Below the pieces are notes generated by a model. That model saw nothing but the letters and a program-made list of their open reading frames with translations, had not been told where the DNA came from and ran no database searches. This document shows, piece by piece, positions 10,894 to 48,632 of a stretch of DNA of 64,000 nucleotides. Positions within the stretch are counted from its first letter, which is position 1. Every line of letters begins with the position of its first letter. The stretch covers positions 106,475,319-106,539,318 of the forward strand of contig CP136066.1 in assembly GCA_032622095.1 (NCBI GenBank), read 5' to 3'. This DNA comes from Siphonodentalium dalli (taxonomy: Eukaryota > Mollusca > Scaphopoda > Gadilida > Siphonodentaliidae). Both the position numbers and the translations under genes were made by a program.

Positions 10894-10905
10894 TAAAGGA
10901 AGAAG

Positions 10906-18564: not shown

Positions 18565-18893
18565 TTAATTATCAGACTGAAGTTCCTTTGAATTTTGTTT
18601 ATTCCTTGAATATCTTCTGACATTGACTGTTGAATAGAAATGTGACAATGATCGTTGCTTTGTTAATATGGGATGTGAAATGTTCCTTATAAGATTGAAC
18701 ACAATCATTGATTTTGAAACAATATATTGATTGTTATTTGACACATGTTTAATTTAATTCGACATACTTTTTGACCGAACGATTGCCCATAAAATCGGTG
18801 GTAACAAATCAGTGCCCAGTTGTGACATATTGAGATTTATGTGATGGTGGTAGAATTTGTCACCTCATTTTTACCGAAGGTGGTGCATAGTTA
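18565..18893. other. Intergenic stretch with nothing recognised
   Basis: No supported feature. Confidence 0.35.
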
Positions 18894-19439
18894 TGGGGCG
18901 CCGTTCCTCTATTTATGACCTATTTAGTGATATTAATAATACTTTTTATGATATCACTAAATGAATAAATGATATCACAAAATCGAATATATGATATCAT
19001 TAAATATTGTATGATATCACAAATTGATTTCAAGATATCTCTAAATCCAATTTGTGATATCATAAATTAATTTTTTTTATATCACAAAATCGAATCATTT
19101 TTATCACAAAACAGTAAGCATTTAGTGATGGCACTAATTCGATTTTGTGATATCATAAATTAATTTTGTGATGTCATAAAATTGAATTTGAGATATCACT
19201 AATTATTTTTGTGATATCAGTAAATAGAAAATTGGCATAGCTGCAGGGGGGGGGGGTCAGGAACATATTTCTGGACACTAGGCCGGTAGGCCCACCACCC
19301 CCTAATTTTAATTTTTTCCGATTCTGGGATAGGGACCCACCCCCTCCAAACTGCTTCAAATGACTATTTTACTCTGTTTTCCTGATTTTTAACCGATATA
19401 TGTTCGGTATCATGATCAACAAGACTTTAAAGTTTCAAA

Positions 19440-19960
19440 ACTTTTCTCCAATAAATGTGGGCTGTAAGGTGTGCTGGTGGATTGACATTTGAAATCCAAG
19501 GTGGCTGCTGGCGGCCATGTTTGTTTTAAACAAAAATTGGGGAGAGGGAGGCTCCCATATCTAGAGATCACCTCAAAGATCCATATGAAGTTTGGTGATG
19601 ATTGGATGAGAAATGTGACCTGTAAGGTGTGCTAAAAGATTTAGTCATACAAAGAGTAAATTTCAAGATGGCCGCTGGAAGCCATGTTTTTTTTTACAGA
19701 ATTCGTGACAAAATGGTAGGCACCAATTGATACGTCACACTGACGATCCATATGAAGTTTGGTGATGATCGAATGAGGGATAAGTTATGTAGGGTGTGTT
19801 AAAGGATTTAGTGATGCAAAGAGTAAAATCAAATATGGCTGCCGGCGGCCAAGTTTTTCATCGAAAATCGTTCAAATTTGACAGCTCCCATCTAGAGGAG
19901 ATTCTAGATCCATATACCGAATATCGTTGAAATCGGTCGAAGTTTAAATCTAAGCCTGCC
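19440..19960. repeat. Tandem block with AAGTTTGGTGATGATCGGAT units
   Basis: Diverged units of about 170 bases contain ATCCATATGAAGTTTGGTGA (about 19578 and 19747) and AAGATGGCCGCTGG-type segments. The same family recurs at 58330-59110. Confidence 0.7.
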
Positions 19961-20230
19961 CATGTCAATGTGCATTGATAGATCCTTGATGAAAACATTT
20001 AGCAAGCTGACCTTTTCATTACCCATTGGTGTCATCCCTCATTATTAACTGATGGTGAACTCAAACACCCTACCAAGAGTTAAGTACATACCTATTACAT
20101 CATAGAAGCATTCTTAAAACCTTTTTTCCCCAATATTTTGAAGAAAAATTACTCAAGGAAAAAATGTGTCAGCCGGGCTGCTGAACCACCCACACACCCC
20201 CCCGCCTAGTGTTTGGAAAATATGTGCAGA

Positions 20231-20259
20231 CCCCCCCCCCCCCCCCCCCCCCCCCCCCC
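20231..20259. repeat. 29-base C homopolymer
   Basis: An uninterrupted run of 29 C lies within the GATATC element. Its length may be unreliable in the assembly. Confidence 0.9.
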
Positions 20260-20831
20260 ATATAGCTGGACTACTTATTCCGTCAACATTTTGTGATATC
20301 ATTAAATTATCTTTTTATATCATAAAATCGAAATATTGATATCACTAAATGCTTACTTATTTTGTGATATCATATATTTGATTTTGTGATATCACTAATT
20401 CCCCAACATTTTATGATATCACAAAATCATGATATCTTAAAATCATTTTATGATATCTTAAAATATTTAATGACATCATATATATTCGATTTTATGATAT
20501 AAAATATTGATTTAGTGATATCATAAAATTAATTATTGGTATCACTATATATAATAAATAGAGGAACGGCGTCCGTGAATTAGTTATATCATAAAATCGA
20601 ATATGTCATATAAAATAAAGAGTATATTAATGATATCACAAAATTATTATATGATATCACAAATTCTAATAAGTGATATTACAAAATGAATATATGATAT
20701 CACAAAATCGAATATGTGATATCGCTAAATTCTTATAATTTTATGATATCATATATTCGATTTTGTGATATCATATATTCGTTTTGTGATATCACAAAAT
20801 ATATAATAAATAGAAGAAGTGGCGCCCCATA

Positions 20832-23806: not shown

Positions 23807-24686
23807 GGGTAGGGTTCTCTATTCCGAAGGTTCGCTATTCCGAAGGTTCACTAATCCGAAGGTTCACTAATCCGAAGGTTCACCAATCCGAAGGTTCACT
23901 ATTCCGAAGGTTCGCTATTCCGAAGGTTTTCTATTATGGGAGTTTTTAGCCAGAAATGAATCAAAATTTGCGCCCCCGTACATTTATACACCCCAATCTA
24001 ATATCTAATTTGTCCCGGATGTCGGTTATTAATAGCAAGAAGACAGTATCAGTTTATCATTTTAATATTATAGAAAGTTGAAAACACAATGACTGAAATA
24101 AACTACGAGTTAGAGATGCATTCTACCCGAACTGGCAATCTGTACTTGAAAGAAACATCAACATTAAAATCAATACAAAGTCAGAATTGCAGTTAGGTCC
24201 ATTCAGCGGTATTCTGCTATACAGTAAGTTATAGCGCTCCAGTATTGATTGACCGTAAGAGCCCCACTGTTATAGTCCGCCTTTAGCATTTGGGACATTA
24301 TATTAATCAAAATAACTCCTATGTAAATCATTTATAAATCAGATGATATATTGAAGTTATATAGACGTAAAATAACTAAAATATGTCGTTTAGTCCTCAG
24401 CCGATAGACGACATATATGTCGTTCTACTCGCCAAAGGGTTAAATCTCAAGGAAACCCACGAAAACAAAAATCACATTTATTTTTTTAATGTTTTAAGTT
24501 GTTTCCTTCATAAGAGTCTTCGTACTAAAGAACCCTCTCAATATACTTTAGAATATAGAATTAACTTTTAAAATAACAAAAACCTTCGGAATAGCGAACC
24601 TTCGGAATAGTGAACCTTCGGAATAGTGAACCTTCGGATTAGTGAACCTTCGGAATAGCGAACCTTCGGAATAGAGACATGTTCCC
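23807..24686. mobile_element. 880-bp element whose ends are inverted 17-bp repeat arrays, 8-bp target duplication
   Basis: The left side holds seven copies of a 17-base unit (TTCCGAAGGTTCGCTAT and variants) at about 23823-23934. The right side holds six copies in inverse orientation at about 24584-24678. The outermost bases are GGG and CCC. AATCCAAC is directly repeated at 23799-23806 and 24687-24694, a perfect 8-bp target duplication. The interior is AT-rich with only a 62-residue open frame and no recognisable domain. Confidence 0.85.
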
Positions 24687-26816: not shown

Positions 26817-27219
26817 TGAATTATGGGTAATTTTAATTGGAGTGCGCATGTCTGTTTTTTTTGTAGTAACGGCCATCTTTTATTTTCTGCATGCGCAGTC
26901 TATATGCGTTCTTTTGGGGAAATTCGCTATTTTGGTTAAGTGAAACAATGGTATGAGTTCAATGTTTGTTTGTATATAAGAAAGTATATTGAATTTTGGA
27001 GGCCGACAATTGTATCTATTTGAAGATTAAAAGTTGCTTGTGTGTATTTAGCTGTGCATGGTTCGTTAATTAGGCCAGCCTATTGTCATATTAGAACGTC
27101 TCCAATAACATACAACCTCTCTGCAGTTAACATTGTGAATTTGGCAACAGTCCAAGCAGGCCCTCTAATGGAGCACTGTGAATTTGGCAACAGTCCAAGA
27201 CACGTGGGGTATATATAGA
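26817..27219. other. Intergenic stretch with nothing recognised
   Basis: Contains a short duplicate GTGAATTTGGCAACAGTCCA (about 27134 and 27178). Nothing else was recognised. Confidence 0.35.
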
Positions 27220-27360
27220 ATACACACGTAGTGTTTCTGAATACCAAATTTACACCACGAGTGGGATTGATGGTTTACCACACGAGCTTTAGCGAGTGTG
27301 GTAAATCATCAATCCCACGAGTGGTGTAAATTTGGTATTCAGAAACACTACGTGTGTATT
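27220..27360. mobile_element. Near-perfect long hairpin, 141 bp
   Basis: AATACACACGTAGTGTTTCT at the left is inverted at the right end. The arms of about 62 bases pair almost without error around a loop near GAGCTTTAGCGAG. Near-identity of the arms suggests a recent miniature element or a selected structure. Confidence 0.85.
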
Positions 27361-28551
27361 TTGTTTATACCATGACCGGTACAGGAGCAACAACTGCTAT
27401 GAAATCGAAATAAACCCACTTAAATTAAGATGATTCTGTCGCACCATTCACAATCATCCCCGTTGTGTTCCCCACACTTGGCCGTACATCGACGTACACT
27501 ATCACAGCTGATCAGGCGTATTGATACATTGAATTAGGTCAACATTCAATTGTACGAATATGGTATCATTGTAGCCAATTCACAATAAACTGTAATCATG
27601 ATGAAACCGCCATAAATAAACAACATGAATATATATATGGGAATACGAATTTAATGAATATAAATATAACACATTGCGGGAACTTTTTTTTCTCCGCCGT
27701 ACAGTGAACAGGAAACCACGAAAGTCATTTTGAAATCCACCGTTTGTTGTTCGAGTTTTTTACGTCTATTTCTTGAAATATATGTTCAATTTGTTGATCT
27801 GGATGTGATTTCCACGGAAATAACTGTTCGTTTTTATCGCATTAGTGAGTATAATATTCAATTGAATCGAAAGTATCAAATTGTTTTCATCGCGAGGCGC
27901 TACATTTTAAAAATAGAGTGATTTTGATCGAGGTCATGGAAGGTTAATGAAAGGTCAACTCGGATGTAGTTCTACTATGGGTATAAACTTTAACCATTGA
28001 AATGCCATTAAAACGTGTTACCCACAGTAGAAACGTGTTACCCACGGTCGGACTCCTGTTCACACACAGTAGGGTGTACAGCACAAATATATTATATAGC
28101 ATGTTTGTACACAGTACAATAGGGAGTCATGGTATAAAATAACTGAACACCTGTGGCCAACTTGATCTCCAGAATGTTTTTAAGTGGAAGGGACAGTGTA
28201 GTGGGGTGGGGGTGGAAGTTAGATTTTGAGTGTGTATGATTCACAACTTTTGTAAAAAAAAGTTAATGCACATGTAGTTGGAAATTTCATACATTATTAC
28301 ACTACAACATAAAGGTTAAAATACATGGTTACCATTGCCTGGTATCCCAACTAGTAATTATTGTCCCCATTATGATGGGGACGGGGATCGAATGATGGAG
28401 GTATTTTGAGGGGGTGGGAGTCACAACTGTTATAAAGAATTTTAACAGTTGGAAATTTCATACATGATTACACTAACTTTTTGTCCCCATTTATTTTACT
28501 GCTGTCTTGTTTGTTACTGTATTCCTGATATGGAAATAATAAAGAGCATTT
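27361..28551. other. Intergenic stretch with nothing recognised
   Basis: Short imperfect repeats only (for example GTGTTACCCACAGTAG and GTGTTACCCACGGTCG near 28018). Confidence 0.35.
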
Positions 28552-28893
28552 ATTACGCCACCTGTGGTGTATCTAGCTGCTGAGATTTTGATATTGCGTG
28601 GTGGACAGGGCGAATGCATTGTGGGGCTTTTATTTATAGAGTTGGAAATTCCGTTTATTTAAAAGTCGGAACTACGCGACCAGTAGGCCAAGTCCAGTAA
28701 AACGGTTCGTTATAGGTGCTGGTTGTTATTGTTATTTTAACGGAATTCTGAGTTGGTCATTCGCGAAACCAATATATTTTATATTCTATAATTAAAACCG
28801 TGGGTATATAATATATGATCCTCTTTATGGATATTGTAGGAAGGTAAATTTAGCTAAAGCGGTGGGATATCTTGCAAGACAACACATTTCGGT

Positions 28894-29603
28894 TTGCGCT
28901 ATAACTGCTCAATGTTTTAAGGTGTTACACAACGTCTGATAAAAAGAGTTCTATCGGGAATATTCACACTATTTTTTCAGAGAACATGCATAGAGTAAAC
29001 ATAGTCCTATCGGACTATCGTAAAGTAGTTCCGTTTAATTCGGGATTAATTAACCCTCAGACTGCCGAAACTGCCGACAATAAATTCGCTTGTTCGTGTC
29101 CGCCGAAAATCAAACTTGCCTGTTTAGAGGTCCCATTTTCGTGGCTAATGGTGATAGAATCACAATTTTTCAGTCAAATTCATGGATAAATTACATTACA
29201 CTTAATCGGCTTATGTCCGCGGCCATAAACCTGCGTTTTGATAACAATTTATTTGAGACAAACTGTTGCGCGGGTATCAGTCGGCGCTTATCGGTTGAAG
29301 TTATTATGATCGTGCAGCCTGCGCGTGCAACAAGTGTTCAAATACAACAGAAGAAAAAAATACTATGTCAAATAAATAACGTCATCAATGGACAGACAAG
29401 TTTCATTTCCGCGGGACACGAAAAAGCGAATTTAATGTCGTCAGTTTCGGCAGTCTGAGGGGTTTAATTAATCTCCTTTACGATATCCCGATAGGACTAT
29501 ATTTACACTATGTTCTCTGAAAACAAATGGTGTGAATATTCCCGATAGAACTATTTTTATCAGACGTTTTGTAACACATTAAAACATTGAGCAGTTAGCG
29601 CAA
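28894..29603. mobile_element. 710-bp terminal-inverted-repeat element, arms about 180 bp
   Basis: TTGCGCTATAACTGCTCAAT at 28894 is inverted at the right end. Mirrored landmarks are ACGTCTGATAAAAA, GTTCTATCGGGAATATTCAC, AGTCCTATCGG and CCCTCAGACTGCCGAAACTG. A 122-residue open frame in the centre shows no domain that I recognise. Outside, TAACGGAATTCTGAG with AACCAATATATTTTATATT occurs at about 28738 and 29997, so a wider duplication surrounds the element. Confidence 0.8.
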
Positions 29604-30420
29604 TTTTCTGGAATTTCGGACTATTTCGTCTATAAAAATACGATGAGCAACTGAAAATGTTTTTCAACATTCTGGAAGGAGTAGATGTCCAGGTATATAT
29701 GTTTAAAATTTCACGCATAAACTATGACAGATAACAAAGTTATAATTAGTTTTATAGGCCCACCATAAATCCCCTATAATAAACGCATGCCCCCGTAAGC
29801 ACATGGCTTTGCTGTGGATGCTTTCGTTCCCAGCATGCATCATTCTCGCTATCTGTAAAATGTCTATGAACAATGGCTGTGCCACGCACTCTTAGCTTTG
29901 ATCCGCATTTAGAAGCATTCTGGTGTGGCGAATGAGAAACCTGCAGTAATTTATAAGCCGTAGTTCATTGTAATAATTTGAAGAATTACTTATCTTAACG
30001 GAATTCTGAGGCGGTCCATTCATGTAACCAATATATTTTATATTATGATTTATATTTATGGCTAATAATACGATCTTGGTGGCGTTACCATTTCTGACTA
30101 TGGTTTTCTTGTTTAAAATGGTGGTGTACCTGTGAGTTAATATGTGAATGTGTGATACTGATTATTTAATTAAACTCATTTATGAATGATCACAATATTT
30201 CTTATAAACTACAAAGGGGAACTATATACGTATTCCTCTTTGGATAATGTTACCCCATACTAAATAATTGAAGATGGTAAGCTCCCTTACTATGAATGAT
30301 TTGGATATGTGACGACTCGGGCCGGAGACAACTCGCCCCGGTGGTGATTTTGGGGCCGACTTCTCTCCGGAGCGACCTGTCCCAGGTGGAATGCCATATA
30401 ATATTTTCTTAACAGTATAA
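29604..30420. other. Intergenic stretch left of the tandem array
   Basis: No gene was recognised. It contains the right-hand copy of the GGAATTCTGAG repeat. Confidence 0.35.
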
Positions 30421-33400
30421 TTATACTTCCATGGTGTAACCAAGGAAGTATATTGTTTTTCTACTGCGGCCGTTTTCTGTTTAATTGAAAATACTCAGAA
30501 ACTAATGGGAGGAGGACCGCGAAATCTCTAGCGAATATAGGCATCTAAGGTCTACTAAAAATAATGGTATCCAGATGTTGGTCCAATATCTTTTGACAGA
30601 GTTATGGCCCTTTTTCGATTATTTTTCATTATTATTATTATTATACTGGACACTTTTGCAACCCTTATTACTCGAAAAGTACCACGAGTAGCACACTAAA
30701 TATTGGTACGTATCTTTGGGTCAAAGAGTTGTATGCCATCGTCGCATAAAGAATATTGTCCGCGTTTTCTCCGAGGAGTTATCTCCCTTTATCTGAAAAA
30801 ATGTCATTTTATTATCTCGGAAATTATAAGCAGCAGAGCATCGAAAATTGGACCGTATGCACACCTCGATATGCCCTACTGCCCACGGGCATCAAAACTT
30901 GTGTCCGCGCTTTTCCTGAGGAGTTACCGCCCATAAATAGGCAAACCTCTATTTGATTTACTATGCTGTACTCTCGTATCATTAGAGATAACTGCATTTG
31001 GATTTCATAGTCGTGTTGACCGTTGTCAGTTTAGTCTGAAAAAGAAAATTGAACAGGGTCGGCCATATATTTTGACGCTGGGGTGGGGGCAAAATTTTCG
31101 AAAAAAAAGGTTTTGATTGACATTCCTCTATTTAAGTATGTTGATTCCCTGAACGAAAACAAATCCATACTAGAAAGGATTTTTGAAATCAGAGAAGACA
31201 TGCAAGAGTTACGGGCCCTCCAACTTTGCAATTTTGGGCCCATGTGCTTGTGACCACATCTCCTCTGAAGATATCGAACATAGGATGTCATCTGATACGC
31301 CAATATGTGCGGACTGAAGAGGGCACGCGACTGGCCAAATTTTGCCAGTGTCGGTTCATTATTGTGGGTCTGGGGAGGGGTGGTCCGTGGTACCAATTTT
31401 TAATTATTCTCGGAATCAGATGAAACTTGGAATATAACATCTGCAACATCAGCCGATCTAGAAGCTGGAAGAATTTCGAAAATCCATCGAAAACTAAAAG
31501 AATCGCGGGCCCTCAAACTTTGCAATTTTGGGCCCATGTGCTTGATAACACATCTCCTCCGAAGATATCGAACATAGGATGTCATCTGATACGAAAATGC
31601 GTACGGACTGAAGACGGCACGCGGTGGGCCAAATTTTGCAAGTGTCGGTTCAGTATTGTGGGTCTGGGGAGGGGTGGTCAGTGGTACCAATTTTTAATTC
31701 TTTTCCGAATCAGATGAAACTTAGAATATAACATCTGCAACATCAGCCGATCTCGAAGCTGAAAACAGATCGTAAATACGTTGGGAAATGGCGGAGATTT
31801 TGGCCGTCCAATTTTAAATTTGGGCCCATATGCTTTCCAATAATCAAAGTGTTATCCGTCTCCAAATCAGATGAAATTTACACTATGCAATCTATGTTAG
31901 CGGCAGATCGCAAAACTGAAAATAATTTTAAAATCCGTTGGAAACTAACGGAGTTACGGGCCCTCAAACTTCGCATTTTGTGCCAGGGTTGATGTTTTCC
32001 CAATCCCGTCACCTAATTTCGAGGCAGGGGTGGGGTCACGTCCAAACACTTGAGATAAACATACACATGTCTTGACAACATATACTCACCATACTTCACA
32101 TTTTACGTCCCTAAACTGGGATTCTTTCCACTCATGATTTTCCCTATTATTATACTTCCATGGTGTAACCAAGGAAGTATATTGTTTTTCTACTGCGGCC
32201 GTTTTCTGTTTAATTGAAAATACTCAGAAACTAATGGGAGGAGGACCGCGAAATCTCTAGCGAATATAGGCATCTAAGGTCTACTAAAAATAATGGTATC
32301 CAGATGTTGGTCCAATATCTTTTGACAGAGTTATGGCCCTTTTTCGATTATTTTTCATTATTATTATTATTATACTGGACACTTTTGCAACCCTTATTAC
32401 TCGAAAAGTACCAGGAGTAGCACACTAAATATTGGTACGTATCTTTGGGTCAAAGAGTTGTATGCCATCGTCGCATAAAGAATATTGTCCGCGTTTTCTC
32501 CGAGGAGTTATCTCCCTTTATCTGAAAAAATGTCATTTTATTATCTCGGAAATTATAAGCAGCAGAGCATCGAAAATTGGACCGTATGCACACCTCGATA
32601 TGCCCTACTGCCCACGGGCATCAAAACTTGTGTCCGCGCTTTTCCTGAGGAGTTACCGCCCATAAATAGGCAAACCTCTATTTGATTTACTATGCTGTAC
32701 TCTCGTATCATTAGAGATAACTGCATTTGGATTTCATAGTCGTGTTGACCGTTGTCAGTTTAGTCTGAAAAAGAAAATTGAACAGGGTCGGCCATATATT
32801 TTGACGCTGGGGTGGGGGCAAAATTTTCGAAAAAAAAGGTTTTGATTGACATTCCTCTATTTAAGTATGTTGATTCCCTGAACGAAAACAAATCCATACT
32901 AGAAAGGATTTTTGAAATCAGAGAAGACATGCAAGAGTTACGGGCCCTCAAACTTTGCAATTTTGGGCCCATGTGCTTGTGACCACATCTCCTCTGAAGA
33001 TATCGAACATAGGATGTCATCTGATACGCCAATATGTGCGGACTGAAGAGGGCACGCGACTGGCCAAATTTTGCCAGTGTCGGTTCATTATTGTGGGTCT
33101 GGGGAGGGGTGGTCCGTGGTACCAATTTTTAATTATTCTCGGAATCAGATGAAACTTGGAATATAACATCTGCAACATCAGCCGATCTAGAAGCTGGAAG
33201 AATTTCGAAAATCCATCGAAAACTAAAAGAATCGCGGGCCCTCAAACTTTGCAATTTTGGGCCCATGTGCTTGATAACACATCTCCTCCGAAGATATCGA
33301 ACATAGGATGTCATCTGATACGAAAATGCGTACGGACTGAAGACGGCACGCGGTGGGCCAAATTTTGCAAGTGTCGGTTCAGTATTGTGGGTCTGGGGAG

Positions 33401-36400
33401 GGGTGGTCAGTGGTACCAATTTTTAATTCTTTTCCGAATCAGATGAAACTTAGAATATAACATCTGCAACATCAGCCGATCTCGAAGCTGAAAACAGATC
33501 GTAAATACGTTGGGAAATGGCGGAGATTTTGGCCGTCCAATTTTAAATTTGGGCCCATATGCTTTCCAATAATCAAAGTGTTATCCGTCTCCAAATCAGA
33601 TGAAATTTACACTATGCAATCTATGTTAGCGGCAGATCGCAAAACTGAAAATAATTTTAAAATCCGTTGTAAACTAACGGAGTTACGGGCCCTCAAACTT
33701 CGCATTTTGTGCCAGGGTTGATGTTTTCCCAATCCCGTCACCTAATTTCGAGGCAGGGGTGGGGTCACGTCCAAACACTTGAGATAAACATACACATGTC
33801 TTGACAACATATACTCACCATACTTCACATTTTACGTCCCTAAACTGGGATTCTTTCCACTCATGATTTTCCCTATTATTATACTTCCATGGTGTAACCA
33901 AGGAAGTATATTGTTTTTCTACTGCGGCCGTTTTCTGTTTAATTGAAAATACTCAGAAACTAATGGGAGGAGGACCGCGAAATCTCTAGCGAATATAGGC
34001 ATCTAAGGTCTACTAAAAATAATGGTATCCAGATGTTGGTCCAATATCTTTTGACAGAGTTATGGCCCTTTTTCGATTATTTTTCATTATTATTATTATT
34101 ATACTGGACACTTTTGCAACCCTTATTACTCGAAAAGTACCAGGAGTAGCACACTAAATATTGGTACGTATCTTTGGGTCAAAGAGTTGTATGCCATCGT
34201 CGCATAAAGAATATTGTCCGCGTTTTCTCCGAGGAGTTATCTCCCTTTATCTGAAAAAATGTCATTTTATTATCTCGGAAATTATAAGCAGCAGAGCATC
34301 GAAAATTGGACCGTATGCACACCTCGATATGCCCTACTGCCCACGGGCATCAAAACTTGTGTCCGCGCTTTTCCTGAGGAGTTACCGCCCATAAATAGGC
34401 AAACCTCTATTTGATTTACTATGCTGTACTCTCGTATCATTAGAGATAACTGCATTTGGATTTCATAGTCGTGTTGACCGTTGTCAGTTTAGTCTGAAAA
34501 AGAAAATTGAACAGGGTCGGCCATATATTTTGACGCTGGGGTGGGGGCAAAATTTTCGAAAAAAAAAGGTTTTGATTGACATTCCTCTATTTAAGTATGT
34601 TGATTCCCTGAACGAAAACAAATCCATACTAGAAAGGATTTTTGAAATCAGAGAAGACATGCAAGAGTTACGGGCCCTCAAACTTTGCAATTTTGGGCCC
34701 ATGTGCTTGTGACCACATCTCCTCTGAAGATATCGAACATAGGATGTCATCTGATACGCCAATATGTGCGGACTGAAGAGGGCACGCGACTGGCCAAATT
34801 TTGCCAGTGTCGGTTCATTATTGTGGGTCTGGGGAGGGGTGGTCCGTGGTACCAATTTTTAATTATTCTCGGAATCAGATGAAACTTGGAATATAACATC
34901 TGCAACATCAGCCGATCTAGAAGCTGGAAGAATTTCGAAAATCCATCGAAAACTAAAAGAATCGCGGGCCCTCAAACTTTGCAATTTTGGGCCCATGTGC
35001 TTGATAACACATCTCCTCCGAAGATATCGAACATAGGATGTCATCTGATACGAAAATGCGTACGGACTGAAGACGGCACGCGGTGGGCCAAATTTTGCAA
35101 GTGTCGGTTCAGTATTGTGGGTCTGGGGAGGGGTGGTCAGTGGTACCAATTTTTAATTCTTTTCCGAATCAGATGAAACTTAGAATATAACATCTGCAAC
35201 ATCAGCCGATCTCGAAGCTGAAAACAGATCGTAAATACGTTGGGAAATGGCGGAGATTTTGGCCGTCCAATTTTAAATTTGGGCCCATATGCTTTCCAAT
35301 AATCAAAGTGTTATCCGTCTCCAAATCAGATGAAATTTACACTATGCAATCTATGTTAGCGGCAGATCGCAAAACTGAAAATAATTTTAAAATCCGTTGT
35401 AAACTAACGGAGTTACGGGCCCTCAAACTTCGCATTTTGTGCCAGGGTTGATGTTTTCCCAATCCCGTCACCTAATTTCGAGGCAGGGGTGGGGTCACGT
35501 CCAAACACTTGAGATAAACATACACATGTCTTGACAACATATACTCACCATACTTCACATTTTACGTCCCTAAACTGGGATTCTTTCCACTCATGATTTT
35601 CCCTATTATTATACTTCCATGGTGTAACCAAGGAAGTATATTGTTTTTCTACTGCGGCCGTTTTCTGTTTAATTGAAAATACTCAGAAACTAATGGGAGG
35701 AGGACCGCGAAATCTCTAGCGAATATAGGCATCTAAGGTCTACTAAAAATAATGGTATCCAGATGTTGGTCCAATATCTTTTGACAGAGTTATGGCCCTT
35801 TTTCGATTATTTTTCATTATTATTATTATTATACTGGACACTTTTGCAACCCTTATTACTCGAAAAGTACCAGGAGTAGCACACTAAATATTGGTACGTA
35901 TCTTTGGGTCAAAGAGTTGTATGCCATCGTCGCATAAAGAATATTGTCCGCGTTTTCTCCGAGGAGTTATCTCCCTTTATCTGAAAAAATGTCATTTTAT
36001 TATCTCGGAAATTATAAGCAGCAGAGCATCGAAAATTGGACCGTATGCACACCTCGATATGCCCTACTGCCCACGGGCATCAAAACTTGTGTCCGCGCTT
36101 TTCCTGAGGAGTTACCGCCCATAAATAGGCAAACCTCTATTTGATTTACTATGCTGTACTCTCGTATCATTAGAGATAACTGCATTTGGATTTCATAGTC
36201 GTGTTGACCGTTGTCAGTTTAGTCTGAAAAAGAAAATTGAACAGGGTCGGCCATATATTTTGACGCTGGGGTGGGGGCAAAATTTTCGAAAAAAAAGGTT
36301 TTGATTGACATTCCTCTATTTAAGTATGTTGATTCCCTGAACGAAAACAAATCCATACTAGAAAGGATTTTTGAAATCAGAGAAGACATGCAAGAGTTAC

Positions 36401-39400
36401 GGGCCCTCAAACTTTGCAATTTTGGGCCCATGTGCTTGTGACCACATCTCCTCTGAAGATATCGAACATAGGATGTCATCTGATACGCCAATATGTGCGG
36501 ACTGAAGAGGGCACGCGACTGGCCAAATTTTGCCAGTGTCGGTTCATTATTGTGGGTCTGGGGAGGGGTGGTCCGTGGTACCAATTTTTAATTATTCTCG
36601 GAATCAGATGAAACTTGGAATATAACATCTGCAACATCAGCCGATCTAGAAGCTGGAAGAATTTCGAAAATCCATCGAAAACTAAAAGAATCGCGGGCCC
36701 TCAAACTTTGCAATTTTGGGCCCATGTGCTTGATAACACATCTCCTCCGAAGATATCGAACATAGGATGTCATCTGATACGAAAATGCGTACGGACTGAA
36801 GACGGCACGCGGTGGGCCAAATTTTGCAAGTGTCGGTTCAGTATTGTGGGTCTGGGGAGGGGTGGTCAGTGGTACCAATTTTTAATTCTTTTCCGAATCA
36901 GATGAAACTTAGAATATAACATCTGCAACATCAGCCGATCTCGAAGCTGAAAACAGATCGTAAATACGTTGGGAAATGGCGGAGATTTTGGCCGTCCAAT
37001 TTTAAATTTGGGCCCATATGCTTTCCAATAATCAAAGTGTTATCCGTCTCCAAATCAGATGAAATTTACACTATGCAATCTATGTTAGCGGCAGATCGCA
37101 AAACTGAAAATAATTTTAAAATCCGTTGGAAACTAACGGAGTTACGGGCCCTCAAACTTCGCATTTTGTGCCAGGGTTGATGTTTTCCCAATCCCGTCAC
37201 CTAATTTCGAGGCAGGGGTGGGGTCACGTCCAAACACTTGAGATAAACATACACATGTCTTGACAACATATACTCACCATACTTCACATTTTACGTCCCT
37301 AAACTGGGATTCTTTCCACTCATGATTTTCCCTATTATTATACTTCCATGGTGTAACCAAGGAAGTATATTGTTTTTCTACTGCGGCCGTTTTCTGTTTA
37401 ATTGAAAATACTCAGAAACTAATGGGAGGAGGACCGCGAAATCTCTAGCGAATATAGGCATCTAAGGTCTACTAAAAATAATGGTATCCAGATGTTGGTC
37501 CAATATCTTTTGACAGAGTTATGGCCCTTTTTCGATTATTTTTCATTATTATTATTATTATACTGGACACTTTTGCAACCCTTATTACTCGAAAAGTACC
37601 AGGAGTAGCACACTAAATATTGGTACGTATCTTTGGGTCAAAGAGTTGTATGCCATCGTCGCATAAAGAATATTGTCCGCGTTTTCTCCGAGGAGTTATC
37701 TCCCTTTATCTGAAAAAATGTCATTTTATTATCTCGGAAATTATAAGCAGCAGAGCATCGAAAATTGGACCGTATGCACACCTCGATATGCCCTACTGCC
37801 CACGGGCATCAAAACTTGTGTCCGCGCTTTTCCTGAGGAGTTACCGCCCATAAATAGGCAAACCTCTATTTGATTTACTATGCTGTACTCTCGTATCATT
37901 AGAGATAACTGCATTTGGATTTCATAGTCGTGTTGACCGTTGTCAGTTTAGTCTGAAAAAGAAAATTGAACAGGGTCGGCCATATATTTTGACGCTGGGG
38001 TGGGGGCAAAATTTTCGAAAAAAAAGGTTTTGATTGACATTCCTCTATTTAAGTATGTTGATTCCCTGAACGAAAACAAATCCATACTAGAAAGGATTTT
38101 TGAAATCAGAGAAGACATGCAAGAGTTACGGGCCCTCAAACTTTGCAATTTTGGGCCCATGTGCTTGTGACCACATCTCCTCTGAAGATATCGAACATAG
38201 GATGTCATCTGATACGCCAATATGTGCGGACTGAAGAGGGCACGCGACTGGCCAAATTTTGCCAGTGTCGGTTCATTATTGTGGGTCTGGGGAGGGGTGG
38301 TCCGTGGTACCAATTTTTAATTATTCTCGGAATCAGATGAAACTTGGAATATAACATCTGCAACATCAGCCGATCTAGAAGCTGGAAGAATTTCGAAAAT
38401 CCATCGAAAACTAAAAGAATCGCGGGCCCTCAAACTTTGCAATTTTGGGCCCATGTGCTTGATAACACATCTCCTCCGAAGATATCGAACATAGGATGTC
38501 ATCTGATACGAAAATGCGTACGGACTGAAGACGGCACGCGGTGGGCCAAATTTTGCAAGTGTCGGTTCAGTATTGTGGGTCTGGGGAGGGGTGGTCAGTG
38601 GTACCAATTTTTAATTCTTTTCCGAATCAGATGAAACTTAGAATATAACATCTGCAACATCAGCCGATCTCGAAGCTGAAAACAGATCGTAAATACGTTG
38701 GGAAATGGCGGAGATTTTGGCCGTCCAATTTTAAATTTGGGCCCATATGCTTTCCAATAATCAAAGTGTTATCCGTCTCCAAATCAGATGAAATTTACAC
38801 TATGCAATCTATGTTAGCGGCAGATCGCAAAACTGAAAATAATTTTAAAATCCGTTGGAAACTAACGGAGTTACGGGCCCTCAAACTTCGCATTTTGTGC
38901 CAGGGTTGATGTTTTCCCAATCCCGTCACCTAATTTCGAGGCAGGGGTGGGGTCACGTCCAAACACTTGAGATAAACATACACATGTCTTGACAACATAT
39001 ACTCACCATACTTCACATTTTACGTCCCTAAACTGGGATTCTTTCCACTCATGATTTTCCCTATTATTATACTTCCATGGTGTAACCAAGGAAGTATATT
39101 GTTTTTCTACTGCGGCCGTTTTCTGTTTAATTGAAAATACTCAGAAACTAATGGGAGGAGGACCGCGAAATCTCTAGCGAATATAGGCATCTAAGGTCTA
39201 CTAAAAATAATGGTATCCAGATGTTGGTCCAATATCTTTTGACAGAGTTATGGCCCTTTTTCGATTATTTTTCATTATTATTATTATTATACTGGACACT
39301 TTTGCAACCCTTATTACTCGAAAAGTACCAGGAGTAGCACACTAAATATTGGTACGTATCTTTGGGTCAAAGAGTTGTATGCCATCGTCGCATAAAGAAT

Positions 39401-39592
39401 ATTGTCCGCGTTTTCTCCGAGGAGTTATCTCCCTTTATCTGAAAAAATGTCATTTTATTATCTCGGAAATTATAAGCAGCAGAGCATCGAAAATTGGACC
39501 GTATGCACACCTCGATATGCCCTACTGCCCACGGGCATCAAAACTTGTGTCCGCGCTTTTCCTGAGGAGTTACCGCCCATAAATAGGCAAAC
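30421..39592. repeat. Tandem array of a 1729-bp unit, 5.3 copies
   Basis: Copies start at 30421, 32150, 33879, 35609, 37338 and 39067. Lengths are 1729, 1729, 1730, 1729 and 1729, and the last is cut after 526 bases at 39592. Each begins TTATACTTCCATGGTGTAAC, where ATACTTCC...GGAAGTAT forms a short hairpin. Copies differ by only a few bases. Copy 1 alone has CCACGAGTAG (others CCAGGAGTAG) and GCCCTCCAAC (others GCCCTCAAAC). Copies 2 and 3 share CCGTTGTAAAC where 1, 4 and 5 have CCGTTGGAAAC. Copy 3 has one extra A near 34560. The 60-123 residue open frames, repeated once per unit on both strands, show no domain and overlap heavily, so I do not call them genes. Confidence 0.95.
31167..32020. 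repeat. Internal sub-repeats of the 1729-bp unit (shown for copy 1)
   Basis: GGGCCCTCCAACTTTGCAAT (31212) recurs 294 bases later (31506), in degraded form as GGCCGTCCAATTTTAAATTT near 31801, and again near 31961. CAGATGAAACTT-type segments recur at 31417 and 31711, with a relative near 31866. The first two sub-units are nearly identical over about 290 bases; the others are diverged and shorter. Confidence 0.85.
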
Positions 39593-39616
39593 ACTATACA
39601 CCAGGATGAATAAACC

Positions 39617-39620
<4 letters not shown>

Positions 39621-39653
<33 letters not shown>
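39621..39653. repeat. 33-base T run beside the end of the array
   Basis: A T homopolymer starts 28 bases after the truncated sixth copy. It could be the poly-A tail of a minus-strand retroposed sequence, but no retroelement body was recognised. Confidence 0.8.
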
Positions 39654-39657
<4 letters not shown>

Positions 39658-39791
39658 GTACAGAGCTCTAATTTTTTTATTGCATATTCCGAATTGGACT
39701 AGAGATTAGGACTCGAATATACTGCTTAAAAATGTTTTTACCCAGGGCTTTCCGTGTTACGGGGTACGGAATTATTGCAACTATTTTTCCC

Positions 39792-40592
39792 GCCAAATCC
39801 AAACCGGCTGGTTAAAGAGCAAGATAATGTCGTAGAATGTACATTGACATACTTTATGTACGTCCCAGAAGTTTGACGGCTATACTATAAATGTAACATG
39901 CCCAACGGAGAATGTGTGTCAGTGTGGGTTGAGACTTTAGGAAAATTCCACGAAAATTGCAAAGGGGTGAAAATTCAAACATCGAGATAATATTTTTTGA
40001 CGCGTACATCTGATGGCTAGTATTAACGCGCATCCAGAGGGCGATTTTCTAATTTTCAGATGGAACGGTTTACTCGTGACAACGCTATATATCATTAAAA
40101 TGTATACTTATGTAGTCTATCACTAGCCGATTTTTTAGCCCCAAATCCAAACGGGCTAATGTAGGAGCGAGTTTCACGCAGGAGCATGTAAGCCGGTATA
40201 CTGTTGGTATGCCTTCAAAATTTGACCGCTCTACTATAAACGCAACCTGCTCAAGAGAGTGTTTGTGTCGGGTGGGTTCAGATTTGGCAAATTCCACCGA
40301 AGATCACATGCGAAAAATTACTCCGAAAATCTGATATTGAGATAAAAACTTTTCGACGACTGGATGTGATAAGTAGTATCTAAACGCAAGATTAGTAAAC
40401 TTTTTAATGATTTAGATTGGACGGTTTAACCCTGGTAGAGTATAACGTTGTAACGGGTGATATATATTACTCAAATTCAAACCCTCTCTTCAAGACGCAA
40501 ATTCAAACGGACTTATCAAGAAGCAAGGCAAATGCATGAACATGCTCACCGATATACTATATAGGTATGTCCGCTCTACTATAAAAGTAACA
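39792..40592. repeat. Tandem units of about 350 bp, 2.3 diverged copies
   Basis: CCAAATCCAAACCGGCT (39793), CCAAATCCAAACGGGCT (40141) and CAAATTCAAACGG (about 40498) start successive units. Each is followed by GCTCTACTATAAA-type and AAATTCCAC-type segments in the same order. The third copy breaks off where the next repeat family starts. Confidence 0.8.
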
Positions 40593-40597
40593 TATTG

Positions 40598-40882
40598 TCA
40601 CGATTTGACCTGTCCAAAACACTCCCCGGACAAAAGTTTTCCTAGGTATCAAATTTCGTCGAAATCCATTCGTTTTACCCGATTTGACCTTGAACTGACC
40701 ATTTATAAGGTCAATGTCAGGTCGGGGTCACGACCTGACCCCCCCCCCCAAAAGACTCCCCGGACAAAAGTACCCCTAGGTATCAAATTTCGTGGAAATC
40801 CGTCTGTTTTACCCGATTTGACCTTCGATTGACCATTTTGAAGACCAAGGTCAGGTCGGGATGGGATGGGATGGGATGGGAT
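40598..40882. repeat. (GACCTTGA)-type tandem units ending in (GGGAT)n
   Basis: Two units of about 130 bases have CCCGATTTGACCTTGAACTG, TATCAAATTTCGTCGAAATC and CCGGACAAAAGT, as at 25598-26110. A GGGAT run follows at about 40857-40882. Confidence 0.8.
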
Positions 40883-40965
40883 GGAATACCATGGAAGTAT
40901 ATCTGATTCCATGGAATCTGACCTCTAGTTTTATTTGTATTTATAACAGACTGTATTAAAGATGA

Positions 40966-41429
40966 ATAATCCGATTAAGCGCCCCTCAAATACTATTTAT
41001 TTGGAGTCGCGGGGGGAGGGGGTCGAGGAACCCACGTATCAAAGCTATCAAGTTATTAGATATAGATATAGATTCTATTATTTTTCACCATCGAGACTTA
41101 ATAGTGGCCCAGAAAAAAGTCGACGATCTCGGACCAAATTGCCGATGCAGGTGGATAACTCTAAAATCAAGAGGCTCAGCCATTATAGTGTTGATAATTT
41201 ATAAGACCAAACTTCGTCGAACAACATGTTGATTAATAACACGTTTCGGGCGATTTTGTACTATAGTTAAAAATTGACAGTGGTTAGTATTGATTTTGGG
41301 TAATTGACAGTGGTTAGTATTGATTTTGGGTAATTGATAACTTAAGCGGCATTTCTAAAATTGTTGTCGTTGTTGTTGTTGGAATCTGATTATATGGGGA
41401 CCATAAAATTGGATTGAGTTCTTTTATAT
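40966..41429. mobile_element. Family X, degraded copy 3
   Basis: GGTCGAGGAACCCA, AAGTTATTAGATAT, GTGGATAACTCTAAAATCAA and the inverse of CCAACAACAACAATCC match 17573-18041 in order. The inverted arms are heavily decayed. Near 41280 a TTGACAGTGGTTAGTATTGA unit is duplicated. Confidence 0.6.
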
Positions 41430-41883
41430 ACGGTACTTTAGCCAAACTGCTAAGGTACGTGCCGTAGATCTATGCGCCGCTTGCATGACCGTCATTTGTC
41501 GATCACGTCAAATGCGCCCGTTCGTCACAACAATAGCAGCGCCCGAGCGCTGATTTATTCAACGCCGATTCCACGGGCACATGTATGCTCAATGGAATTC
41601 GAGCGCTTTCAGACAACACGAGATAATTGCGGATTTGAATCCACGTAGGATGGTCCATTTCCAAAATCTAAATCACGTGGCTGGATATAGTATTACTGTA
41701 AAGTATGGACCCGAAAGAGACTATATAGACGAAATACCATTACAAAACGATTTGTGCATGGCTCAAGGGCTGTCCAGACCAGATGAAGTCACGTTCATAA
41801 TATACGAAATAAAGATTCATTATTCAAAACACAATTATAGTCAATTATGTCTGTATAATCGCCTGGCATGTGAATCAAAATAT
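41430..41883. other. Stretch with an unassigned 124-residue open frame
   Basis: An open frame at 41581-41955 (+) gives 124 residues with no domain, signal peptide or membrane segment that I can recognise. It runs into the left arm of the fold-back. The upstream 100 bases are GC-richer than the surroundings. It could be a remnant exon or chance; I favour chance. Confidence 0.25.
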
Positions 41884-43329
41884 AGGCCTACGGTACTCTA
41901 TAGTCTGGTCGATAAACTCAAATTTTATGGTCAACCTAGAAAAAATTTGGACTAAGTTGGTTTTTATATCACTTTGAAGAGGAAGCTCTCCTCTATAACA
42001 TATCCAAAATCCGCTAAAATCCGCTTTGAGCAATTTTTGTAATTCAAGATGGCGTCCAATATGGCTGCCATTTTCCTATAAGTCAGCTCGATGCAATTAT
42101 AGTGAGAACATCTTGTCATATGTATACACTTGTATACATTTTTGTGAAGCTATGACATAACGCCATCTTTATGTGCCAAAATTGAAACTTCCCGTCTAAG
42201 ATGGCCACCAAAATGGCTACCAGAAGTGGAATTTATACGTTTTTACTAATACTTTTAAGATAAGTTTCTGAGGTTTTGAACTGGTTGAGAATTGTAACTT
42301 TATCTTGTATATAGCATGTTAACTGACCATTGGAGCAATGATATATGCTGTTCGTGGGGGTCCACACCCTTCCGATCACTCAAAAATTCGATTTTACAAA
42401 ACGCGGTATAACATTTTACAAAAGATCACCTTTGGGATTCTGGTCACATTTCACCAAGACGTGGGACGAACAGTGCAATGTAAGTGATCCATTCTATACC
42501 TTATTGATATTCGAACCCAATGGTACCAAAATTGTCACTTTGGCTCAAAATGGCTGTCAAAATGGCCGCCAAAATATGGAAAAATGTTAATTATTATCCC
42601 AACGTGCCATGCAACCACTTACAATTTATGGTGATGTACATAAATGCCTATTCCGTATTATATACATTGAATACCAACATTTCTTATGCACCTTTATTAA
42701 TTTTTACTATTTAACATTCTGAAATTACCAGAATTATGGGATTTTTCTATCACAAACAGCATCAAACTCTGCTAAAAAATCACCATCTTTAGTATCAAAG
42801 GTTCTTTTTATTTTGATATGCCTCAAATATGGCATAGTGTTGTGTTTTAGACAATATTACTCAAGATTACATGCAAAATGCCAACCAAATTTAGTAAAAA
42901 GTTTATATTCCGAACATTATTCTCGGCTGTTCCGAAATTGTAGCAAATTGTGACTCACTTGGTTATTAAACATGCTACTTAATCAATGGACAACTTAATC
43001 TTATATTATGGTTGTCCCAAATTTTTTTTATTATGGTTGTCCCAAAACCTTATGGGGCACGATAAATTAATTTTAAGGGATGCAGTATGAATTTTGCCGA
43101 ACACCTATTTTGGGATTATGTCCATGTTTTTTACGGAAACGGACGGAACGTTGAACCTGAACTGACAGGTATCATATTATGTGGCTACTCTGGCCCATTA
43201 GCATAAACAACTTATGAACTATTGTCAGGAAAACCGTTTTATTCACATTGCATATAAAACGCAATTAATGTGGAGAACACTCTGATATTACCTCTATCGA
43301 TTAACATATCCTTGAGTTATTGTGGAAAG

Positions 43330-45540
43330 TGATAGTCACACAAAGGTGCACCAGTACAAATCACACATGAGCATGCAGTCACTCCATTTATACATACATG
43401 AATACCACGTAAATGGCCATGTGCCACTCGCTGTATAGACATACACCTCACCCATTACCATACAGCCACAATTGGGTTTACCCACACCAACGCATGGCCA
43501 TATAGCCGTGAATAACATTGCAGACACACCAGGTATACTCCCACACCTCACATGACCTGTATACATATTCACTACATACATGAACACAAAGTAACCTCTT
43601 GTATACCTATTCACCTAACCATAGGCCATACAGTCTATCCATGTATATGTATTTGCCACATGCATAGCTATACAGCCACTAAATATATACATGTACGCCT
43701 AACCGATTACCATACAGTCACTCCATACCTGTTCGCTACATCCATTGTCATATATTACTTCTTGTATATCTATTGCCTCACCAGTGGTCATACAGTCTCA
43801 CTCCCTGTATATATACATATTTGCGACACCCATGACCATATAGCCACTCAAGATATACATATACACCCAACCCAAAACCATAGAGTCACTCTAGGTATAT
43901 ACATAATAACCTCACAAAAGTGGCATTACAGCCCTTCTAGATATATCAATGTCTCGTACCGCGCATACGGCCATTCATACACTCCAGACTTGCATATACA
44001 CCTGACCCATGACATTTCAGCTTCTCGCTGTATACGCATAAACAACAGCCGTGATCATAGTCACTCCTTGTATATCAATTCACCCCACCATTAATTTTGT
44101 CATACTGTCAATCCCCATATACCTATGTACATATTGGCCGTGCCATGGCCATGTAGTCACTCGTGATATACATATACACCTCACCCATGACCACAGCGTC
44201 ACTCCATGTGTGTATATATACCTCACCAATGGCCATACAACCCTTTTAGATATACCAATACCCCGCACACACGGCCATTCGTACACGTCAGACTTGCATA
44301 TACAGCTCAATCGTGACATTTCAGCTTCTCGCTGTATACGCATAAACAACAGTCGTGATCATAGTCACTCCTTGTATATCAATTCACCCCACCATTAATT
44401 TTGTCATACTGTCAATCCCCATATACCTATGTACATATTGGCCGTGCCATGGCCATGTAGTCACTCGTGATATACATATACACCTCACCATGACCACAAC
44501 GTCACTCCAGGTGTGTATATATACCTCACCAATGGTCTTACAACCCTTTTAGATATACCAATACCCCGCACACACGGCCATTCGTACACTTCAGACTTGT
44601 ATATACAGCTCAATCGTGACAATTCAGCCACTCGCTGTATACATATACACCCTCTCCACGAGCATTCAGCTAGTTAATGTATGATTGTACACACCACCGA
44701 TGACAATACAATAGTACATATTAACATATACATCCCATCCATCACCATGAGGTTGCCAATGGCCATCAAATTGTACTCCAGGTATGCATATACACTTCAA
44801 CAATGACCGTGCAGTCATTCCATGTACACATATACACATTGCCCATAACCACACAACCACACCCTATTTATACATACACCCATCCATTACCATACATCCA
44901 ACACCCGCCCATGACAATACATCCACCCAATGTACATATGTACAGCCCACCACTGACCACACAGTCACTCCATGTATACATACAGGACAGTGTAGCTGCT
45001 CTCGTTATGACCATACACCACTTCAATGACCAGATAGCCACTCGCTGTAAACATGTTCACCTCACACATCAGCATACAGCTACTCCTTATATACCTATAT
45101 TGATTGATTGATTGGGGTTTATTGTCGCTTTAGTCACTAAGGCCATATCACGATATTGCCAGTTTTAGTGGTGGAGGAAATCCGCACACTTGCGACTAAT
45201 CTAACAGTGATTTCAATGGCTGGTAAACTCGTCAACCATGTGCGGCAAACCACCGGCCATCGGCGAGTAACTGGTAACTCCACCAGATAAAGATTTCGAG
45301 TTACAAAGTCCACGATGGAAACATGTGGATTTGAACCCTAATCGCCAGCGCTGGAGGGCGAAACGGCTTGGAGTTGTACCCCTAACCGATTGAGCCACCG
45401 AGGCCCCTTATATACCTATACATCTCACTATGGACATCCCATCCATGGCCATATAGTCACACATTGTATAACTATTCACACCATTCATGAATACAATAAG
45501 TCCATGTATACCTACTCACATCGCCTATAACCAGACAGTC
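43330..45540. repeat. Degenerate minisatellite of about 43-46 bp with a 304-bp higher-order repeat
   Basis: ACCCATGACCATACAGTCAC and GTATATACATATACACCTCA alternate throughout at about 43-46 base spacing. A higher-order unit of 304 bases is nearly identical at 43987-44290 and 44291-44593, with a third beginning at 44594. The long open frames here (for example 180 residues at 43552-44094) are rich in H, T, Y and I and follow the repeat. Confidence 0.85.
45100..45405 (-). mobile_element. tRNA-derived SINE with a (CAAT)n tail and a 15-bp target duplication
   Basis: Read on the minus strand, the head carries an A box TGGCTCAATCGG (45386-45397) and a B box GGTTCAAATCC (45327-45337). The body ends in a (CAAT)n tail (plus strand ATTGATTGATTG, 45099-45112). 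CCTTATATACCTATA is directly repeated at 45085-45099 and 45406-45420 without mismatch. The insertion splits the minisatellite, so it is younger than the fold-back loop. Propagation by a LINE partner is expected for this class, but none is visible here. Confidence 0.9.
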
Positions 45541-46895
45541 AACAGACATACCCACTGTATTAAGTTGATCAATGTTGATGCTAATGGACCAGAATAGCCA
45601 CATAATATGATCCATCTCAGTTCGGTTTCAACGTTCTGCCCATTTCCGTTCAAAAACAAGGAAGTTTTAGACAAAATCCGTATTGCATTCATCAAAATGA
45701 ATTTGTCATGACTCGTATGGTACCGGGACAATCAGAATAGAACATTTAGTTAATTAAGTAGCACATGAGTCACAATTGATTATGTATACATATACACCAC
45801 GTATATACACATATGTATATGTATATCATAATGTTTACCAAACTTGGTTGCCATTTTGGAAGCCATCTTGAGTAATTTTGTCTAAAACAACTCAGTGTGA
45901 CACATGTAACACATATCAAAACAATAAACATCTTTGATACCAAACATGGTTCCATTTTACTTTCAAAAAATGGCTCAAACCTGAACAGCCATTTTTTGCC
46001 GATTTTGATATCAGGATTGTGACAGAAAATTTCGAATAATTCTTGTAATTTCAGTGGTTAAAATAGTAACAAAATACCAAAGGTGCATCAGAAATGTTAG
46101 TACTCAAGCTATATAAGACATAATAGTCAACTGCATCACCATAACTTGTAAGCGGTTGCGTGGCACGCTGGGATAATAATTACCATTTCCCATATGTTGG
46201 CGGCCATTTTGGCAGCCATTTTGAGCCAAAGTGACAATTTTGGTACCATTGAGTTCGAATATCAATAAGATATAGAATGGATCAGTTACATTGCACAGTT
46301 TTTCCCACTTCTTGATGAAATATGATTAGAATCTTGGGGATCTTTTGTGAAATGTTATACCGCGTTTTGTAAAATCGAATTTTTGAGTGATCAGAAGGGG
46401 TGTGTACCTCACGAACAGCATATTTCATTGCCCCAATGGTCAGTTAACATGCTAAATACAAAATAAAGGTAAAATTCTCAACCAGTTCCAAACCACGGAA
46501 ACTTATCTTAAAGATATTATAAAAAAAAACGTAAAAATTCCACTTCCGGTCGCCATTTTAACGGCCATCTTGGACGGGGAGTTCCAATTTTGGCACATAA
46601 AGGTGGCGTTATGTCTTAGCTTCACAAAAATGTATACATGTGTATACATATGACAAGATGTTCTCACTATAATTGCATCAAGCTGACTTATATGAAAATG
46701 GCAGCCATCTTGGACGCCATCTTGAATTACAAAAAATGCTCAAAGCGGATTTTAGCGGATTTTGGATATGTTATGGAGGATATATTCTTCTTCAAAATGA
46801 TATACAAACCAACTTAGTCCAAATTTTTTCTAGGTCAAACCTTTTATCGACCAGACTATCTAGTCAAACTGCTAAAGTGCCGTATACGGTAGGCC

Positions 46896-47081
46896 TACTT
46901 TAGCAGTTTGAATAGAGTTTGGCTAAAGTGCCGTATGTACTTTAACAGTTCAGCTAAAGTGTCGTATACCGTATAGTATTACTATACGGTATACGGCACT
47001 TTAGCTGAACTGTTATTTCGATCTAAAGTACATATACGCATACGGCACTTTAGCCAAACTCTATTCAAACTGCTAAAGTAG
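46896..47081. mobile_element. Palindromic element, 186 bp, next to the fold-back
   Basis: CTACTTTAGCAGTTTGAATA at the left is inverted at the right end. The arms of about 90 bases meet at ATAGTATTACTAT near 46980. Each arm repeats GCTAAAGTGCCGTAT. Related sequence lies beside the left arm at 41440-41466. Confidence 0.8.
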
Positions 47082-48601
47082 GGGAGACCCGGGCAAAGCG
47101 GATCGCCCGGGCAAAGCCGATCACCTTTATTATTTCAATACTAGCAAATTATTCCGATTCTATCCGTATTTTAGAATAAGTTACTGTATATACGGATCTC
47201 TAGCCACGGCCTTTAAATTATCCTCACTCATTTACTTCCGGTGTCATAATTAGCATGAACTACTTCCGGTTTCTACAGTCCTCATAACTTCCGGTGCCGC
47301 GAAAATGGCGGCATTTATAAAAGCCTTCCTTTTTATAAAAGATTCGATGGTGCCGTCAAAGATTAGACCGCTCAGAGTTTTGGAGATTTCCTAAAATGTC
47401 ACCGGGCTAACCTTATTGGCACTTATGTAGGGTGATACCGAGACAAAACTCACGTCTTATCACGTAACTTGTAAATGTAAGTAAGTTGCAAGTCGCACAT
47501 GACCACAGCCTGGCACAGGACTCAGGAGTTTGTCAGAATGATAATAAATAATAATAATAATACATATATACAATACAAATAATAATAAATAGTAATATAC
47601 TAATAATAAATAGTAATAAAAGTATAGGAATGAATCAAGGGGATTAGTGATTTGACCTACAAATGTTTATTTATAAATTTTTTGCCTCGAAAATAGGAAA
47701 GCCAAAATGTTATCGTCATATCGATTGTACTACTTGTAGCGATCTTCAGACAGATTGCTATTTATGACTATTAATATTATACATCAATATGACCGCATGT
47801 GGCTGAAATTTAACTTCGCATTGACTACAGTCTTTCAGGTAGTAACGGGTCACAGGCAGTAACGGGTCAGTTGCTGTTTATCGTCGTGGCAAAAGTCACA
47901 GATGCACTTGATCTCCCAAAATCCTGTTGATTCTTGAGAATGAATATGTGTTGGAGATCATGTGCAATTTGTGGCGAGTTCTGACGGTAATTTCCGATTT
48001 AATTCAATTTTTCTGACGGACAGTGGAAACGCATTGGAGGAAAGTAGGTCAACAAAATATGTCAAGTTGCAGATCGGCTGCTGCCAATACAAAACAGAAT
48101 AAAGTACACCCAAACTAAGCACTGTAAAATATTAACAAATTATTTATTTTTCAACTCCCAGAGCCCCACAAAAGTTAAATTTGTCTTATTGTGTAAACAA
48201 TCTAAACATTTAATTTGTTTCGACCTACTTCCGTTGTCAATAGCGGGTCACATGCTTTTGTTGACAGTCGATCGCACGTGCTATCACGGAATGGATAAAA
48301 ACATGTCAATTGAATTCTAATGATTAGCATACGTTGGAAATAATAAAACATAGTAACATTTCATGCCTTCATTGACAATTTAAGACATAATATAGGTTGA
48401 AATTGTTCTCATAGTTTAATTTTCCAACCAGAATTGAATGAAGAGTGAATATTTTTTTAGAGCAACACTGAGAGCAACAGTCAAATATTTTGCAATGGTC
48501 GGTAAAATATTTAGATTGGAATGGCTATCAGTTGGAACATTTCTAACTATACAGGGTGCCAGGTTGAAAAATTCTAGCAGTTGGAATTCTTGAAGGACCT
48601 G

Positions 48602-48632
<31 letters not shown>

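Follow-up and report, generated by a model that had tools for sequence, protein, structure and literature searches.

What is repeated at this locus of the scaphopod Siphonodentalium dalli, and how did one long noncoding unit come to stand there more than five times over in nearly identical form? We analysed a 64,000-nucleotide stretch of contig CP136066.1 (forward-strand positions 106,475,319 to 106,539,318; assembly GCA_032622095.1), which we call the window and whose own numbering we use throughout. A preliminary description made from the letters alone had noted a recent tandem array in it, and had left unequal crossing-over, gene conversion and rolling-circle copying as candidate mechanisms. 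We conclude that the array is real, young and noncoding; it belongs to a known kind, and nothing in it points to a gene or to new machinery. With moderate confidence we read it as a young satellite-like tandem array, the unit of which has a hairpin at one end, and which grew and was partly homogenised by unequal homologous exchange.

Results

The array spans positions 30420-39592, where a 1729-bp unit is repeated head to tail in five full copies (one of them 1730 bp long) followed by 525 bp of a sixth, bearing out the 5.3 copies with internal 294-bp sub-repeats described earlier. Units start at 30422, 32151, 33880, 35610, 37339 and 39068 (spacings of 1729, 1729, 1730, 1729 and 1729 bp), all on the + strand. 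Copy 1 (30420-32150) is counted here with two shared bases on its left; copies 2 (32151-33879, 1729 bp), 3 (33880-35609, 1730 bp), 4 (35610-37338, 1729 bp) and 5 (37339-39067, 1729 bp) follow without interruption, and partial copy 6 (39068-39592), comprising unit positions 1-525, is truncated where the array ends on the right. Identity on the left side extends those two bases beyond the unit start at 30422, to 30420, and past one mismatch the three bases at 30416-30418 match too. The layout can equally be written as six 525-bp segments and five 1204-bp segments. G+C content is 41%, against 36.7% in the rest of the window, where a blastn search with the unit (E 0.5) returned just seven matches, each of 15-25 bp and at chance level.

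The copies differ at a handful of bases over 1.7 kb, as had been claimed: when the five full copies are aligned with the partial sixth, four positions vary, three of them SNPs and one an A8/A9 homopolymer length. Unit position 264 is C in copy 1 (30685) and G in copies 2-6; position 800 is C in copy 1 (31221) and A in copies 2-5; position 1520 is T in copies 2 and 3 (33670 and 35400) and G in copies 1, 4 and 5; and at position 679 the A8 run is lengthened to A9 in copy 3 (near 34559). Copy 1, outermost on the left, thus carries the sole two SNPs private to one copy, and its C at position 800 is the derived base, because both other sub-repeats carry A there. The grouping of copies 2 and 3 against copies 1, 4 and 5 is also true, but a single site (1520) defines it.

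Between pairs of the full copies, SNP divergence averages 0.00081 per site, and this 99.9% identity supports the view that amplification was recent. If a few substitutions occur per billion sites each year, the last common ancestor of the copies would date from the past few hundred thousand years. Because mean divergence is only 0.08%, copy number is probably still variable within the species.

Near-identity of this degree also raises the question of whether an assembler expanded the array, or whether the true copy number is lower than assembled. Homopolymer length, in which sequencing often errs, accounts for one of the four differences, and since no SNP separates copy 4 from copy 5, nor copy 2 from copy 3, either pair may be an artefactual repeat. 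The three SNPs nevertheless sort the copies into 1, 2-3 and 4-5, and the window contains no N. We consider an assembly artefact improbable.

Each copy opens with a hairpin, which in copy 1 (30422-30452, + strand) lies exactly at the left edge of the array and recurs at the starts of the later copies (32151, 33880, 35610, 37339 and 39068). Thirteen of its 14 stem positions are paired, around a 3-nt loop, and its energy as DNA (-9.6 kcal/mol) was equalled by none of 200 shuffles, confirming the short hairpin first noticed at the unit start. It is the sole hairpin of the unit with at least 12 stem positions (at most one mismatch, loop 3-20). Hairpins of similar size are common in the window, with 35 of 41 outside the array; by simple geometry, the probability that either edge of the array comes within 5 nt of the edge of any hairpin is ~0.014, a rough figure computed after the match had been seen.

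Downstream of the hairpin, an (ATT)5 microsatellite occupies unit positions 207-221 (30628-30642, + strand; examined in copy 2, the copies being identical there), and from about unit position 791 the 294-bp sub-repeats follow in 1.9 tandem copies (31212-31761, + strand, in copy 1; 32941-33490, 34671-35220, 36400-36949 and 38129-38678 in copies 2-5). The two tandem sub-repeats differ at 41 of 294 positions, without gaps, and a degenerate third piece at unit positions 1438-1563 (31859-31984, + strand, in copy 1) is 70% alike to unit positions 987-1113. The unit therefore records two time scales: its sub-repeats are ~14% diverged, against ~0.1% among copies, and are far older. Since the sub-repeats diverged long before the array formed, amplification was recent and acted on a unit that already held its inner repeats.

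No gene was found to explain the array, in agreement with the preliminary description as far as tested. The longest stop-to-stop frame within it is 124 amino acids, a six-frame Pfam search over two units gave no family at E 1, and the 41 sub-repeat changes are spread 13/13/15 over codon positions without bias, indicating that the sub-repeats are not coding; on these grounds we rejected the idea that the unit contains a gene. Likewise, nothing supported a structured RNA, a ribozyme, or a repeat of the 5S or tRNA type: Rfam gave no family in the window at gathering score, and ARAGORN gave no genes. Rfam at E 10 over 30000-34200 gave four SNORD49 matches of 15.8-17.7 bits against a cut-off of 37, and no hammerhead. 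A descriptor search found no hammerhead core on either strand; the + strand has four CTGANGA words, none with stem and GAAA, and the - strand has no CTGANGA at all. Comparison of the unit with phages and plasmids gave no match, although these prokaryotic and viral collections carry little weight for eukaryotic DNA. Exact hairpin and sub-repeat strings had no match in the viral_contigs or genome_contigs collections, also prokaryotic or viral, and DNA strings looked for in the text of papers were not found.

The array sits among many inverted-repeat elements. Just upstream lies a foldback element (28894-29603) with arms of 76, 70, 40 and 23 nt that are 83-93% complementary, flanked by 54-55 bp direct repeats (28732-28785 and 29990-30044) that are 87% alike. 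Long, near-perfect, MITE-like inverted repeats occur at 573-639, 10903-11153, 27208-27371 and 46859-47082 (stems of 20-42 positions, loops of 3-18 nt). A family of ATATCAC-type repeats with a period of ~21-22 bp is dense, in both orientations, at 18892-20800, and longer related repeats, again in both orientations, lie at 41900-43209, 45573-46859, 49042-49698 and 52584-53230 (67-84% alike over ~0.6-1.4 kb). A second tandem array, at 43830-44642, has a period of 304 bp, 2.6 copies and 89% matches, and is far more diverged than the 1729-bp array. A 16-bp tandem repeat occurs at 23813-23928 and, ~0.65 kb away and in opposite orientation, at 24581-24674. Homopolymer runs include C29 (20231-20259), T33 (39621-39653) and G29 (48604-48632). 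A six-frame Pfam scan, covering the window apart from 10001-10400, 30401-30421 and 33883-39400, found ankyrin models only: an ankyrin-repeat coding stretch on the + strand (62672-62908; Ank_2, E 1.1e-24) and a weaker Ank_KRIT1 match (62270-62581) below the curated cut-off.

The array ends abruptly at 39592, as had been reported. The T33 run on the + strand to which this end had been linked sits 28 bp past the array and need not belong to it. We also asked whether the run could be the poly(A) of a minus-strand retroposon accompanied by a duplication, and a recurrence search showed nothing convincing: the last 8-12 bases left of the run (at most one mismatch) recur in 39654-48000 only as 8- or 9-base near-matches (eight hits). 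The right flank (39593-39621) was compared with the hairpin for a decayed copy; the score against its reverse complement was reached by 1 of 200 shuffles, weak given that 12 comparisons were made, and that against its forward strand by 17 of 200. No duplication pairs the two edges of the array, as their longest shared word is 5 bp, equalled by 469 of 500 random pairs.

These edges bear on two readings in which the unit is, or derives from, a mobile element; the published systems are cited here from excerpts of the papers. In the first, LTR-like, six 525-bp terminal direct repeats surround five 1204-bp interiors, and the array was expanded by terminal-repeat recombination. The copy arithmetic fits the TDRx_I(x-1) pattern of biv-TRIM arrays (excerpt of PMC6934838), but fractional-copy arrays of any kind satisfy the same arithmetic. 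Penelope pLTRs may have a 5'-end palindrome, they can occur as partial tandems, and target-site duplications are absent from some of their insertions (excerpt of PMC3846280); the unit may be a non-autonomous Penelope derivative. The 5-bp word common to both edges is unremarkable. The 525-bp repeat lacks a TG at its start and a CA at its end, and neither a primer-binding site nor a polypurine tract was seen (all by eye only), although bivalve TRIMs can lack a canonical primer-binding site (excerpt of PMC6934838). Pfam found no reverse transcriptase in the scanned frames, and none with a GIY-YIG endonuclease in the two units; the hammerhead core is lacking on both strands. We regard an LTR-like origin as unlikely.

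In the second reading, the unit would be a non-autonomous Helentron/HINE-like element, the rolling-circle product of which would have entered the site with a fixed end on one side and an arbitrary end on the other: copying would have begun from the 5' hairpin, run through the terminator on a circular template and gone round 5.3 times, halting within the sixth turn. In published HINEs, a 5' subTIR and its complementary IR are followed by a microsatellite, by central repeats and, on the 3' side, by a subTIR and a palindrome (excerpts of PMC7492417 and PMC4067079). The left half of this layout is present, as the array edge falls exactly on a hairpin arranged like the subTIR and its complementary IR (14-position arms, 13 paired, 3-bp spacer), and a microsatellite and then central tandem repeats follow in the published order. 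The lack of a target-site duplication also speaks for this reading. Helitrons are known to make head-to-tail circles and may end early or read through (excerpt of PMC4778049); tandem insertions have also been reported (excerpt of PMC5148889).

The right half of the layout fits poorly. Near the 3' end of the unit we sought the 5' arm in inverted form and did not find it, the reverse-complement score of 7 being reached in 27.6% of shuffles; all that turned up was a direct match, which covers 10 of 11 columns with one gap and starts 60 bp from the end (4.4% of shuffles). The 3' palindrome, 5-10 bp long in mites, is also missing: the last 120 bp contain no perfect stem of at least 5 bp with a 3-12 nt loop, and a stem of 4 bp that lies 29 bp inside the 3' end, which could be counted in favour, is at chance level, being present in 681 of 1000 random 40-mers from the window. 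Folded as minus-strand RNA, the unit has a stem of 7-8 pairs, wobble pairs included, ~67 bp from its end, against a published range of 8-35 bp. HINEs insert at TT without duplication; here we saw no duplication, and the right end is cut, so that the target is unreadable. The right end of the array is not at TT, and its last bases are unlike the end of the unit (by eye). The canonical Helitron marks of 5' TC, 3' CTRR and a hairpin ~11 bp inside (excerpt of PMC4067079) were not seen on either strand at the unit junction, again by eye. No Rep or helicase domain appeared in the frames scanned with Pfam, and a base common to copies 2 and 3 only is not produced by a clean concatemer.

Because the 3' inverted subTIR and an above-chance 3' palindrome were not found, we do not file the unit as a HINE; it could still work like one, and we hold a rolling-circle concatemer to be possible but doubtful. 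Far more remote is the possibility that the unit represents non-autonomous rolling-circle elements of a new kind, equipped with a 5' hairpin origin alone and lacking a terminator, of which this locus would be a fresh, undecayed product. If such an element existed, each transposition would drop a multi-copy concatemer with one end fixed and the other arbitrary.

Discussion

We favour growth of the array by unequal homologous exchange. A 1729-bp unit, with its older 294-bp repeats already inside, would have been placed or duplicated here with one end at the hairpin. Unequal exchange between copies would then have brought it to 5.3 copies and homogenised them in part. The T at position 1520 of the neighbouring copies 2 and 3 fits exchange or conversion after the array had formed, and recurrent mutation explains it poorly. 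Of the mechanisms first put forward, unequal exchange or conversion thus gains support, though the evidence is thin, this being a single site. We infer that the later copies were made by exchange. The hairpin at the start of the array and the fractional copy at its end suggest, more weakly, that the unit derives from a mobile element.

Two points count against growth by exchange. Exchange rests on the one shared site, and plain unequal exchange does not predict a hairpin at the edge. The fractional copy also has to be explained: simple tandem duplication yields whole copies, so that a 525-bp remainder calls for a direct repeat already in place, for a deletion at the end, or for an inserted concatemer. 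The layout of six 525-bp and five 1204-bp segments is expected equally from recombination between 525-bp direct repeats and from a concatemer cut at one end.

We suggest that the array is a clean natural case for watching a satellite-like array begin. The hairpin-marked edge is interesting, if unproven in its significance, and together with the fractional copy it makes possible a direct test of exchange-driven growth against insertion of a rolling-circle concatemer.

Among known systems, the locus shares with HINEs and other non-autonomous Helentrons of the DINE-1 kind its 5'-edge hairpin, microsatellite, central tandem repeats, noncoding sequence and lack of a target-site duplication; unlike them it has no 3' inverted subTIR or above-chance 3' palindrome, and its whole unit is repeated with the last copy cut. 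Head-to-tail circles, early ends and read-through were seen in the Helraiser experiments (excerpt of PMC4778049). In one-ended transposition of IS801, a relative of IS91, one end of the insert is constant and the other varies, falling at a tetranucleotide that resembles the normal terminus (excerpt of PMC3189936), whereas here the cut end and the end of the unit do not resemble each other. Tandem TRIM arrays such as biv-TRIM and Cassandra likewise have x terminal repeats and x-1 interiors, and Cassandra tandems can end in incomplete units (excerpt of PMC7215508); our repeat of 525 bp differs from their 100-250 bp (excerpt of PMC6934838), and we saw no target-site duplication, TG..CA ends or primer site. 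Penelope-like pLTR tandems resemble the array in the palindrome at the 5' end of the direct repeat and in forming partial tandems (excerpt of PMC3846280), and differ from it in that the array has no reverse transcriptase, hammerhead core or target-site duplication.

With its head-to-tail noncoding unit, the locus agrees with satellite-like arrays. The scattered satellite arrays of bivalves, such as those of the Crassostrea gigas satellitome, are short runs of noncoding, head-to-tail repeats, with oyster monomers ranging from 21 to 3287 bp (excerpt of PMC8268682). Monomers of 160-180 bp dominate there, one array is known here, and the two are likened by layout, not by sequence. The same excerpt names unequal crossing-over and rolling-circle reinsertion as ways in which oyster satellite arrays change.
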